Below, in pieces: positions 58,097-63,984 of a DNA stretch of 64,000 nucleotides; within the stretch, counting starts at the first letter, position 1; each line of letters starts with the position of its first letter. Source of the stretch: Oscillospiraceae bacterium (GTDB lineage: Bacteria; Bacillota; Clostridia; UBA1212; SIG427). A model generated the notes under the pieces. The model did not search any database and had not been told where the DNA came from. It saw nothing but the letters and a program-made list of their open reading frames with translations. Both the position numbers and the translations under genes were made by a program. Location of the stretch: contig SVJE01000008.1 in assembly GCA_015069135.1 (NCBI GenBank), forward strand, positions 1 through 64,000, in the 5' to 3' direction.

Positions 58097-59416
58097 TTAA
58101 ACACCAAACATTACAGAGTTAATAACAGCTTCTAAGTATTCCTGTTTGCCGCTTATGTTTGTTGTAACATCGCCCATGTTAAGAGCATACTGTTCAAGTT
58201 CTTCCATTGTTGCAGTGCCGGCAACAATCTTAGCACCGATACCTGTCTTGTAGCTCGCATAACGCTCTTCAACGAACTTATCAATTCTGCCGTCTTTAAT
58301 AATCTTATCTGCTACCTTAAGGCCAAGAGCAAAGGAATCCATACCTGCAATGTAAGCAAGGAATACATCTTCCTGAGTATATGATCCACGTCTTGTCTTG
58401 GCATCAAAGTTAAGACCACCTGTAGTAAATCCGCCTGCTCTTAAAACTTCATACATACACATAGCTGTGTCATAAACATTTGTTGGGAATTGGTCTGTAT
58501 CCCAGCCAAGTAACATATCACCCTGGTTAGCATCAATAGAACCAAACACACCGTTATCGGCAGCCACTCTCAGTTCGTGCTGGAATGTGTGACCTGCGAG
58601 TGTTGCATGGTTAGCTTCAATATTCATCTTAAAGTCTTTATCCAAACCATACTTTCTTAAGAAAGCAAGAACTGTTGCTGTATCAAAATCGTACTGATGC
58701 TTTGTTGGTTCTTTTGGCTTAGGCTCAATGTAAAAGTTACCCTTAAAACCTATTGAACGACCGTAATCAACTGTCATTTTCATAAGTCTTGCCATGTTGT
58801 CCTGCTCTAAAGCCATGTTTGTATTAAGAAGTGTTTCATAACCTTCTCTTCCACCCCAGAATACATAACCTTCGCCACCTAAAGCAGTTGTAATTTCCAA
58901 AGCCTTTTTAATCTGTGCTGCTGCAAAAGCAAATACATCAGCATTAGGAGCTGTGCCTGCACCATGCATGTATCTGGGATTACCAAAACAGTTAGCTGTA
59001 CCCCAGAGAAGTTTCTTACCTGTTGACTTCATAAGGTTATCCAAAATACCCTGAATCTTATCCAGACGTGCATTTGTTTCTTTTAAGTTATCAGCTTCAG
59101 GAGCAATATCTCTGTCATGAAAACAGTAGTAATCAATATCCAGCTTATCCATCAGTTCAAAAGCAGCATTTGCTTTAGCTTCTGCATGAGCCATAGAGTC
59201 AGTAGCACCAAAACTCTTATCAGCAGTGCCCACACCGAACATATCTGTACCTTCTGCACACATTGTATGCCAATATGACATAGCGAACTTAAGCTGATTT
59301 CTCATGGATTTTCCCGCAACTATCTCATCAGGATTATAGTATTTAAATGATAGTGGGTTGTCAGAACCTGCACCCTCATATTTAATCTTTGATATTTTGT
59401 TATAGTATTCGCTCAT
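58097..59416 (-). CDS. xylA: Xylose isomerase
   Basis: 439 residues from the ATG at 59414-59416 (AGGAGG upstream; the longer frame has no support). Group II length. Motifs: [18 protein letters not shown], catalytic His in [58 protein letters not shown] and [18 protein letters not shown] for metal binding. It converts xylose to xylulose. With xylB it forms a two-gene operon; no xylR or transporter adjoins. Confidence 0.98.
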
Positions 59417-59450
59417 TGTTAAATTCCTCCTAAATAATATCAGATAGTTT

Positions 59451-59479
59451 ATTATATCATTTAGCAAATTTTGTTACAA
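59451..59479 (-). promoter_or_regulatory. xylA promoter
   Basis: Minus strand: TTGTAA (59479-59474), 17-bp spacer, TATAAT (59456-59451), 35 bp before the start codon. No clear XylR operator or catabolite site was identified. Confidence 0.7.
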
Positions 59480-59692
59480 GCATAATATGATTTTCCATTA
59501 AATGGCAACACAGTAAAAAGAGCCTTTTACAAGGGGTTTTGTGCCCAAAAAAAATGTCATTTTTTTAACTCTTTATTATGATAAACAAAAAGGTCAAAAC
59601 TTAAAAAGTAAGGTAAATTTAATAATGTATTTTATATACATTATTCCCATTATTTCCCAAATCTATTGTTTGTACGTTAATAAAACATCAAT

Positions 59693-59825
59693 TTATCCAC
59701 AGAAGTTATGCACATATCCACAGACTTATGCACAGGCAAAATGTTGATAACATCTCATTTTTACAGATTTATGCACATTTAAATTTGTTCTATTCACAAA
59801 AATTATGCACAAGGGGTGTGCATAA
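59693..59825. other. Cluster of DnaA boxes in a divergent intergenic region
   Basis: Six exact matches to TTATNCACA: TTATCCACA at 59693-59701; TTATGCACA at 59706-59714, 59726-59734, 59769-59777 and 59803-59811 (plus) and at 59817-59825 (minus). Near matches: ATATCCACA 59714-59722, TTATCAACA (minus) 59742-59750, CTATTCACA 59790-59798. It lies between divergent xylA and a glycosyltransferase gene, with A/T-rich DNA to the left (59540-59690). Candidate replication origin or DnaA-titration site. No dnaA or dnaN is in the window. Confidence 0.75.
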
Positions 59826-59905
59826 AAAAACTCTCTTTATTTCCATCTTTTCCCAAAAAACTTATACTTGACAAACTTTTTTTGTTTAATTCAACTTTGC
59901 AAATC

Positions 59906-59934
59906 TTGACTTTTCAGGTATATTTTAATAACAT
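59906..59934 (+). promoter_or_regulatory. Likely promoter of the glycosyltransferase pair
   Basis: TTGACT (59906-59911), 17-bp spacer, TAACAT (59929-59934), then GGAGGT and the ATG at 59966. A second TTGACA at 59868-59873 lacks a convincing -10. Confidence 0.45.
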
Positions 59935-59965
59935 TATTTCTATAATTACATGGAGGTAGAATAGT

Positions 59966-61123
59966 ATGAAAATCCTGATTACTACGGACTGGTACGAACC
60001 CGTTATCAACGGCGTTGTAACCTCTGTATTAAATCTGGTTAAGGAACTGACAGCCAAAGGACATGATGTAAGAATTCTTACTCTTTCCTATGGTGCTCAT
60101 TCATATTACAGTCAGGGAGTTTACTATATCGCCTCTATAAGCATAGGTGGAATTTACCCCGATGCCAGAGCTACTCTGTATGCCGGACGTAAGATGGTTG
60201 ACTCTATTATAAGATGGCATCCTGACATTATTCACTCGCAATGTGAATTCAGCAGTTTTCAATATGCAAAACAAATATCCAGAAAACTTAACATTCCGAT
60301 AGTACATACATATCATACTCTATACGAAAGCTATACCCACTATTTCTCCCCTAGTAAGAAAATGGGTAAACATATTGTCTCCGGTTTGTCCAGAAATCTG
60401 TTAAGTCGTGTACAGAGTATTATTGCCCCCTCTGAGAAAATTAAAAGGGTATTGTATAGTTATCGAATATTAAGAAGAATATATGTAGTTCCATCAGGAA
60501 TTGATTTAAATAAGTTTAATGTTACTCTTTTACCTTCAGAAAGACGTGCATTACTTGGCGAACTGAGTATTCCCGAAGGAAACAAAATTCTTATTACTGT
60601 AGGCCGTCTTGCAAAAGAAAAAAATGTAGAACAGCTTATTCAGTATTTCCATAAAATGAACCGTTCCGACACTGATTTTATAATCGTAGGCGGAGGGCCA
60701 TATCAAAAAGTACTTATGGAATATGCTGAAAAGATCGGTGCAAACAAAAACATACATTTTACCGGCATGGTTATGCCACAATTTGTAGCAAAATATTATC
60801 AACTGGGTGACATTTTTCTATGCGGCTCCACCAGCGAAGCTCAGGGACTTACTTACATGGAAGCTATGGCCAGTGGACTTCCTTGCGTCTGCCACAAAGA
60901 CACCTGCCTAAATGGCATTGTAATCGATGGTAAAAATGGTTATCAATATGACACCTACGAAAATTTCGAAAAATATATTAATTCAATTCTTGATAATCCT
61001 GAATTGAAAGAATCCATGTCGAAAAACGCCAAGGAAATAACCGAAAACCAATTCTCTACTAAAGCCTTTGCAGAGAAAATAGAAAAAATTTATGAAAAAG
61101 AAATTAAAAGGTATATACAATGA
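59966..61123 (+). CDS. Glycosyltransferase family 4, probably glycolipid synthesis
   Basis: 385 residues, GT-B fold. N-terminal acceptor domain (ITTDWYEPVINGVVTSVLNL, HDVRILTLSYG, YHTLYESYTHY) and C-terminal nucleotide-sugar domain (LITVGRLAKEKNVEQLI, the EX7E motif in STSEAQGLTYMEAMASGLP). It resembles the diacylglycerol glucosyltransferases that make membrane glycolipids or lipoteichoic-acid anchors; acceptor and sugar are inferred. It overlaps the next glycosyltransferase by 4 bp. Confidence 0.92.
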   Translation: MKILITTDWYEPVINGVVTSVLNLVKELTAKGHDVRILTLSYGAHSYYSQGVYYIASISIGGIYPDARATLYAGRKMVDSIIRWHPDIIHSQCEFSSFQYAKQISRKLNIPIVHTYHTLYESYTHYFSPSKKMGKHIVSGLSRNLLSRVQSIIAPSEKIKRVLYSYRILRRIYVVPSGIDLNKFNVTLLPSERRALLGELSIPEGNKILITVGRLAKEKNVEQLIQYFHKMNRSDTDFIIVGGGPYQKVLMEYAEKIGANKNIHFTGMVMPQFVAKYYQLGDIFLCGSTSEAQGLTYMEAMASGLPCVCHKDTCLNGIVIDGKNGYQYDTYENFEKYINSILDNPELKESMSKNAKEITENQFSTKAFAEKIEKIYEKEIKRYIQ

Positions 61124-62118
61124 AAGTTCTTATATACGCAGGTGCATTAAAAAAAGTTGAAAAAAGTGGTGTGGGCCAGGCTATCTATCATCAGAAAGAT
61201 GCTCTTAAAAGTGTTGGTATTCCGGTAACATTTGATAAAAATGAAGATTACGACATAGTACATATCAACACCATTTTTCCGGATTCATTTTTTATGAGTT
61301 TAAAAGCCCGAGCAAAAGGTAAAAAAGTCGTATATTATGCTCATTCCACAAAAGAAGATTTCAAAAATTCCTTTGTTGGTTCAAACCTTCTTGCACCGGT
61401 GTTTAAATGGTGGATTAAAAGATGCTATTTAAGAGGAGATGTATTAATCACTCCTACCTCTTACTCAAAAGGTTTATTAGAGAGCTACGGTATCAAAAAG
61501 AAAATATATCCTCTTTCCAACGGCATCAACTTAAAAGATTATAGCAACTCACAGCTTGGAGGGTGCAGATTCAGAGAAAAATATGGTTTCTCACCGGAAG
61601 ATAAAATAATTATTTCCGTTGGACACTACATGAATCGAAAAGGCATTACAGATTTTGTAGAGCTTGCAAAGCGTCTGCCTGAATATCAGTTTATTTGGTT
61701 TGGATATACCCCACCGGCTGCCTGTACTCCTGATGTAAGAGAAGCTGTAAAAACAGAACTTCCAAACCTTCATTTCCCGGGGCTTGCCACACAGGAAGAA
61801 CTTAAAGATGCCTATAGCGGAAGCGATATGTTTCTGTTTCTTACTCACGAAGAAACTGAAGGTATTGTATTATTGGAAGCTATGGCCATGAAACTTACCG
61901 TTCTGGTAAGAGATATACCAATTTACAAAGATATGCTTACCAGTGGGTATAATGTATACAAAGCAGGTACATTAGATGAATTTGAGCGTAGGATAAAGGG
62001 AATTCTTACAGGTACCTATCCTTCTACTTTTGAAGAAGGATATAACTTTGTTAAAGAAAGAGATATTCCTGTTGTAGGTGAAAAACTTAAGGAAATATAT
62101 AAAGAATTGGGATTGTAA
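61120..62118 (+). CDS. Glycosyltransferase family 4, second enzyme of the pair
   Basis: 332 residues with the same GT-B organisation: IYAGALKKVEKSGVGQAI at the start, YAHSTKEDF, LITPTSYSKGLLESYG, ISVGHYMNRKGITDFVELAK and the EX7E motif in EETEGIVLLEAMAMKL. Coupled to the preceding gene by ATGA-type overlap. Adjacent GT4 pairs in Bacillota often build a di-glucosyl-diacylglycerol in two steps, which is the likely role here. Confidence 0.92.
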   Translation: MKVLIYAGALKKVEKSGVGQAIYHQKDALKSVGIPVTFDKNEDYDIVHINTIFPDSFFMSLKARAKGKKVVYYAHSTKEDFKNSFVGSNLLAPVFKWWIKRCYLRGDVLITPTSYSKGLLESYGIKKKIYPLSNGINLKDYSNSQLGGCRFREKYGFSPEDKIIISVGHYMNRKGITDFVELAKRLPEYQFIWFGYTPPAACTPDVREAVKTELPNLHFPGLATQEELKDAYSGSDMFLFLTHEETEGIVLLEAMAMKLTVLVRDIPIYKDMLTSGYNVYKAGTLDEFERRIKGILTGTYPSTFEEGYNFVKERDIPVVGEKLKEIYKELGL

Positions 62119-62287: not shown

Positions 62288-62643
62288 GTGAAACGTAAGA
62301 TGTCTATAAGACTATTAGCTTTATTGGTGATGAGTTGTTTATTGTTTTTTGTTTCCCCATATTCATCTGTACATTTTGCTCATACACAAATAGAAAAAAC
62401 AATTACGAACAAAAATTACCGTTTGAAATACAAATGAACCGTTCAAATCTTCCAGAGTCCTCGTCAGAAGCTAAAATCACAGCAATGCACGAAGCAGGGC
62501 ACGCATTTCTTTTGGAACATCCAGATGATCAACACTATAATTATCGTGTTGCAAGCATAATGAACGGAGGTTCTTTTAAACATATGAGAACACCAACACC
62601 ATCCATATATGACCAATATAATATAAAAAGGAGATGGGATTAA
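62288..62643 (+). pseudogene. Frameshifted remnant of a secreted metzincin-type zinc protease
   Basis: Two frames carry parts of one gene. From a GTG at 62288 a signal peptide (KRKMSIRLLALLVMSC, then SVHFAH) reads for 49 codons and stops at 62435-62437. The next frame, open through 62643, encodes MHEAGHAFLLEH, the HExxHxxxxxH zinc motif of metzincins, and a Met-turn-like ASIMNGG. A one-base change around the A-rich stretch near 62395-62425 would join them. The region between the signal and zinc site is far shorter than in matrixin-like proteases, so it is probably degraded. It ends directly at the next start (TAA-ATG). Confidence 0.7.
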
Positions 62644-63984
62644 ATGAAAAAAAACATTCATATTTTAATTATATTAATTCTTCTTTTGTTGTTGAGTTCA
62701 TGCAACAGCAATTCACACATCGTTGCTGTTGACACCTATAACATAGGAGAAACTCCTCCACATGTTGTAAATATACAATTAGGTCACGAGCATGGTTATC
62801 CTGAAGCAGACAAAGCTTTACCGGAAATAACTTTTAAAGACTTTGAAGAAAAAATCAGAGAAACTTATGCAGATAACTATATTATAGTAGAATGTGAAAT
62901 GATCGAAGGAGGAACTCTTTATTGTAATACAGAACACAATTATGCCAGCCATGTTATTACTCCGGTAAAAATCCTTAAAATCCATGATCAATCAGAAAGT
63001 CTCCCCTATGAAATCAAAGTCGGAGATGAAATAAATGTGGGAGAACCATATTTTTGGATTACCCCAGAAATGGATGGTATTATAGAAGATTATGAGGTCG
63101 GTACATATATCACGACAACCGAATATTACCCTATGATGCTTGGAAAGCGTTATATCTTGTATGCAAATCTCGGAGAAGATCACGAAGGCAATAAATTGTT
63201 GACACCTTGCATGTACTTTAACAGTTTTTGCATCAGCGAAGATAGTCTTCATTCCGAAAGACTATTCACATACAACTGGTCAGACACTCTTTATTACACA
63301 GGTGTCTGGCTGAAATACAGCAACAAAAGCACATTTAACTACGAATATGCAGATGTATTTACCGAAACAGAGAATAAGTCTTTCAATGTTGTCCATGTAG
63401 ACAAATCACCCCTTGAAATTTCTGATAACCTTGAGGATAGAGAAACTGCGTTTTTTAATAAGGGAAACGGAAACGAAGTCATTCTCAGCTGTATCGCCAA
63501 AGGAGACGGACAACAGGTTAAAGTTTCCGGTAATCCTTATTTATATGACTATGAATATTGCACTCTGACAGATATAAGCATTACAGGATACTATCATATT
63601 GGTGAAAAAGTACGCGAAAGTCTTAATCAGAGAACACTGAAACTGAAACTGTTGGAACCATATTATATGGTAACAGAAGAAATGACAGAACTAACAGACG
63701 AATACGAACCGGGAGCTTATATAACCCACAGTAGATATATTCCAACAAACGCAATGCCTAATCAGGGCAAACATTGGCTCGACGGAGAGTGTATAATATT
63801 TGCTTACATGACAGAATACAATGGTGAAAATGTATTGGTTGTGCCAGGATTAATCTCTGCAGTTTCTACAGAAAGGAAACAGCAAATACCTGAACACCAA
63901 CAAATAACACTAGGACCGGAAAGTTTGCTTTGTTACATGGAAACGAAGGCAAAATACATCAACAAACTTTTTATAAGTTCCTGA
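62644..63984 (+). CDS. Lipoprotein with two tandem related domains, function unknown
   Basis: 446 residues. Signal peptide and lipobox LLSSC at about residues 15-19. Two similar halves are visible: first with DNYIIVECEMIEGG, VKILKIHD, EINVGEPYFWITPEM, YEVGTYITTTEYYPM and RYILYANL; second with EVILSCIAKGD, ISITGYYHIGEKV, LLEPYYMVTEEM, YEPGAYITHSRYIPT and CIIFAYM. No known domain is recognised. GGAG precedes the ATG, and the gene follows the metzincin remnant without a gap, so the two were probably co-transcribed. It ends at 63984, close to the window edge. Confidence 0.85.
   Translation: MKKNIHILIILILLLLLSSCNSNSHIVAVDTYNIGETPPHVVNIQLGHEHGYPEADKALPEITFKDFEEKIRETYADNYIIVECEMIEGGTLYCNTEHNYASHVITPVKILKIHDQSESLPYEIKVGDEINVGEPYFWITPEMDGIIEDYEVGTYITTTEYYPMMLGKRYILYANLGEDHEGNKLLTPCMYFNSFCISEDSLHSERLFTYNWSDTLYYTGVWLKYSNKSTFNYEYADVFTETENKSFNVVHVDKSPLEISDNLEDRETAFFNKGNGNEVILSCIAKGDGQQVKVSGNPYLYDYEYCTLTDISITGYYHIGEKVRESLNQRTLKLKLLEPYYMVTEEMTELTDEYEPGAYITHSRYIPTNAMPNQGKHWLDGECIIFAYMTEYNGENVLVVPGLISAVSTERKQQIPEHQQITLGPESLLCYMETKAKYINKLFISS

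Follow-up and report, generated by a model that had tools for sequence, protein, structure and literature searches.

DnaA is the protein that starts chromosome copying, and clusters of its boxes outside oriC (DnaA-box clusters, DBCs) are a known kind of site, previously described mainly from Bacillus subtilis, of which the cluster reported here is a further case. The B. subtilis region listed as "downstream of gcp; downstream of ydiF" contains 10 sites and is among those most strongly bound by DnaA in vitro (PMC4447404, Table 1), with a Kd of 0.15 µM for ATP-DnaA and twice that for ADP-DnaA (PMC4447404). The gene gcp is tsaD, and this region lies at about 15% of the chromosome from oriC. Deletion of six DBCs from B. 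subtilis is reported to lead to early initiation (Okumura et al. 2012, as cited in PMC5295017 and PMC13220808), and according to one review no single B. subtilis DBC has a strong effect alone. In Escherichia coli, the loci datA, DARS1 and DARS2 resemble the present cluster in being non-coding groups of DnaA boxes at fixed places away from oriC. The activity of datA, however, works via IHF and ATP hydrolysis, and B. subtilis lacks IHF, datA and DARS (PMC13220808).

The window, i.e., the whole stretch of 64,000 nucleotides analyzed here, belongs to contig C9 (101,764 bases) of the source genome. Exact matches to the DnaA consensus TTATNCACA were found at six positions: one copy of TTATCCACA at 59693..59701 and copies of TTATGCACA at 59706..59714, 59726..59734, 59769..59777 and 59803..59811, all on the + strand, and a further TTATGCACA on the − strand at 59817..59825. 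The last two form the sole inverted pair among the exact boxes. The mismatch search gave ATATCCACA (59714..59722, +), TTATCAACA (59742..59750, −) and CTATTCACA (59790..59798, +), each with one mismatch, so that the content announced by the original prediction, six exact boxes (five direct and one inverted) and three one-mismatch boxes packed into 133 bp of intergenic DNA, was recovered in full by pattern matching. The A/T-rich DNA said to adjoin the boxes was measured at 20% GC on the left (59570..59692, where a search for DnaA-trio repeats gave none) and at 24% GC on the right (59826-59965). No RNA family was found at the site in Rfam.

The assembly consists of 11 contigs (1.90 Mb), with ~75 kb present as N, and its readable part contains 111 exact boxes, which are thinly spread. 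A search for other clusters of the same box, as had been proposed, found none in this readable part, where the next densest 500-bp stretches have two exact boxes each. By a Poisson estimate, 3e-11 clusters of this kind would be expected in the whole genome, in agreement with the earlier statement that this density should be rare by chance. Because of this value and of its uniqueness in the readable assembly, the cluster is real and not a product of chance.

Open reading frame positions and domain matches place the boxes between divergent genes, as originally described. To the left is xylA (xylose isomerase, TIGR02630; 58097..59416, −), and to the right are two glycosyltransferase genes (59966..62118, +), the second of the IagA/BgsA glycolipid type, followed by two ORFs without a Pfam match (62335..63984, +). 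The next gene is tsaD (TIGR03723; C9:64037-65056, −), which begins 37 bp past the end of the window and whose 3′ end faces the boxes across this block of about 4 kb, the distance from cluster to tsaD being 4.2 kb. As in B. subtilis gcp/ydiF, several TTATNCACA boxes lie in intergenic DNA 3′ of tsaD and outside oriC. The two sites differ in that the boxes of the window are separated from tsaD by this distance and stand between divergent genes, and in the number (six exact) and spacing of the boxes.

The setting is simpler in G001, the sole genome of the same family that was compared, in which the gene order is xylA, five boxes, tsaD, uppP and clpX. The glycosyltransferase genes are absent between the cluster and tsaD, the xylA gene bordering the cluster is 85% identical to that of the window, and the boxes lie directly 3′ of tsaD, at 65-250 bp, most of them being antisense to this gene, which is also the case in the window genome. 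The oriC boxes of this relative are separate, being located between dnaA and dnaN together with DnaA-trios. Since the xylA/tsaD setting is shared and G001 has its own dnaA-dnaN origin, the cluster in the window is the counterpart of the G001 tsaD cluster and not of the G001 origin. A bias to G at position 5 is common to the window cluster and to both the oriC and tsaD boxes of G001. Alignment of the inter-box sequence of the two tsaD clusters is poor; hence it is the position of the cluster that is conserved, not its sequence. In two genomes from another family of the same order (G006 and G007), tsaD is followed by five boxes at a distance of 396-503 bp.

It is highly improbable that the cluster is oriC, or a second origin, displaced from dnaA. 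Its boxes beside A/T-rich DNA would suit an origin, and orthologues of dnaA, dnaN, recF and gyrB were not found in the readable contigs, so that the usual oriC is not visible. These genes and the origin region may, however, sit in the 72 kb of N on contig C3 (C3:16001-88000), a contig whose skew runs from negative to positive, and contig C8, likewise given as N, is a further place where the origin region may be; neither dnaA nor dnaN is on C9. The cumulative GC skew, suggested as a check with the original prediction, has no minimum at the cluster: GC skew is mostly negative from 1 to ~59 kb of C9 and from 64 kb onward, and the local reversal is confined to the 4-kb divergent block (59.4-64 kb). 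The maximum of the skew, marking the terminus, was located at C2:299 kb. The genes are mostly leftward, which would place the origin on the right. In Clostridioides difficile, unwinding takes place at oriC2, between dnaA and dnaN and beside a trio, and the same has been proposed for other clostridia (PMC7561715). This bipartite oriC has the same boxes and an A/T-rich flank, but its oriC2 adjoins dnaA and carries DnaA-trios (PMC7561715), as was also seen in G001, whereas the window cluster has neither; no trios occur at 59000-60200, although many dnaA loci in genomes of this order have them. The skew, the missing trios and the separate origin of G001, which has an equivalent cluster as well, thus ruled out the cluster as oriC. 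Among the analogues first put forward for a DnaA-box cluster away from dnaA, oriC consequently fits poorly and the B. subtilis DBCs fit best, there being a cluster 3′ of tsaD both in relatives and in B. subtilis.

The association with tsaD was evaluated at 80 named tsaD loci taken from arbitrarily chosen GTDB contigs of Clostridia, Negativicutes, Bacilli and other groups; because related genomes are not independent, the counts express enrichment and not a tree-corrected probability. Exact boxes peaked sharply, at 0.83/kb, in the first 500 bp 3′ of tsaD versus ~0.04/kb elsewhere (~20-fold enrichment for the first 600 bp) and, when only intergenic DNA was considered, at 3.03/kb versus 0.04 (~76-fold). 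None of 610 gene ends other than tsaD had at least two boxes, the reversed motif had no match 3′ of tsaD, and the best of 300 letter-shuffled control motifs was itself a fragment of the DnaA box. In an unbiased count of all gapped 9-mers 3′ of tsaD, TTATNCACA ranked first, and several of the next were overlapping fragments of it.

At least one box was present at 40 of the 41 tsaD genes of two clostridial families, and at least two at 31: in family f57, 14/14 had a box and 13 had at least two, and in family f12 the corresponding numbers were 26 and 18 of 27. Loci of TsaB-like genes, used as a control, had one box in 12 loci. The B. subtilis gene ywlC, which also has a DBC, is of the TsaC type. 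A link to the t6A genes was nevertheless rejected, as no boxes were found at 21 Sua5/TsaC-domain loci of family f57. Closer inspection of 29 tsaD loci gave 92 boxes, of which 71 were antisense to tsaD.

Named examples with at least two boxes at tsaD include Brevibacillus, Kroppenstedtia, Macrococcus, Alkaliphilus and Thermovorax. In a Macrococcus they are located between tsaD and an ABC-F gene convergent with it, a setting that matches the B. subtilis gcp/ydiF site. The Lachnospiraceae and most of the Oscillospiraceae sampled had none, or only a stray box, near tsaD, and most tsaD loci of the source's own order had no boxes nearby; the site is therefore patchy or mobile. Even so, the location next to tsaD seems widely conserved. 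No report of conservation of the gcp/tsaD site outside Bacillus was found in the literature searched, from which the original DBC paper (Okumura et al. 2012) was absent, and provisionally this wide positional conservation is apparently unreported. A pair of boxes in the same direction with a spacing of exactly 21 bp, or two helical turns, was seen repeatedly in the tsaD clusters of different families (L207, L208, L214-L217, L241), as would be expected for cooperative binding on one helix face.

The survey also bears on a mainly transcriptional role of DnaA at this site, in which xylA and/or the glycosyltransferase genes would be regulated according to replication status. The boxes do lie between divergent genes, 277 bp from the start of xylA and 141 bp from that of the first glycosyltransferase, and DnaA regulates genes in other bacteria (PMC4447404). 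Across lineages, however, the constant element is the 3′ side of tsaD, whereas the gene beyond the boxes varies (xylA, an ABC-F gene and others) and often converges on tsaD; no single promoter role fits such an arrangement. Promoter control of xylA and the glycosyltransferases is possible in this genome and cannot explain tsaD as the constant neighbor; as the main function of the site we regard it as unlikely.

A still smaller likelihood is given to the repeats being operators of another regulator or stems of a tsaD terminator. The former had been raised originally from the prevalence of the G variant, and this prevalence is confirmed, since TTATGCACA accounts for five of the six exact boxes, while the inverted pair 59803/59817 could form a hairpin. 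A private operator fits poorly, however, with a motif that was found 3′ of tsaD without prior choice and is the DnaA consensus, with the presence of all four bases at position 5 of these boxes across lineages, and with the lack of a second cluster in the readable genome. Sites in family f12 are mostly lone or same-direction boxes and most of them form no stem, which ruled out terminator hairpins as a general explanation.

Other groups of DnaA boxes were observed as well. A strict three-box pattern, applied to 391 genomes of the class, was too narrow and missed many tsaD sites, including that of G001, which accounts for the few pairs obtained when its matches were paired by contig with tsaD loci. 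That these matches are mostly origins was ruled out by the positions of dnaA and by the neighboring genes, many being located either upstream of hpf or next to a gene for a CxxC zinc ribbon. The group upstream of hpf (ribosome hibernation factor), often then followed by pcrA, is recurrent in several clostridial families (L177-L182, L188, L189, L191, L206), and in L206 a raiA-motif RNA (RF03072) directly precedes the hpf-side boxes. In several of L192-L198 and L204, the boxes lie between a CxxC-x17-CxxC zinc-ribbon gene and putative amino-acid ABC transporter genes. In L188 the boxes are preceded by a similar zinc-ribbon gene and followed by hpf, which suggests that the two groups are one ancestral locus. 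Seven exact boxes were also found between a SpoIID-like gene and an apparent 5S rRNA gene, away from dnaA (L142, G019:C28:31022-31086), and at least three within an apparent mutL coding sequence in two related genomes (L141, L144).

The boxes themselves, their uniqueness in the readable genome, the conserved position 3′ of tsaD and the absence of origin features make it quite probable that the window contains a DBC outside oriC, equivalent in position to the cluster downstream of tsaD (gcp) in B. subtilis and serving as a site of DnaA titration and negative control. Most likely, then, the array binds DnaA, titrates it and influences the timing of initiation. In seven single-contig genomes with boxes after tsaD (G054, G245, G162, G225, G365, G298, G218), this gene is ~0.4-0.95 Mb from dnaA, or ~10-23% of the circle (sizes rounded); in another single-contig genome, G071, tsaD is exceptional in lying far from dnaA, near half-way round. 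An origin-side position suits titration, since the site doubles early in the replication round. Several DnaA molecules would bind the array cooperatively; the array, being on the origin side of the chromosome arm in most genomes checked, would be copied within the first part of the round; and the doubled array would lower free (ATP-)DnaA, thereby delaying re-initiation.

The recurrence of the site at tsaD across many Firmicutes-type lineages, including B. subtilis, suggests an old conserved brake on replication. There is an even chance that it represents an ancestral replication-control locus of the Bacillota (and relatives), retained at a single gene over a very long period, in which box number, spacing and sequence turn over and position rather than sequence is selected, as a Gram-positive counterpart of datA. 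The clostridial boxes upstream of hpf may be a second locus of this type. These observations bear on what restrains initiation in Gram-positive bacteria in the absence of datA, SeqA or Hda, and they raise the questions of why tsaD is the neighbor and whether distance from the origin is the conserved trait. That the site is found again and again next to one gene, in Bacilli as well as in many clostridial families, implies selection, and it provides defined loci to delete and footprint.
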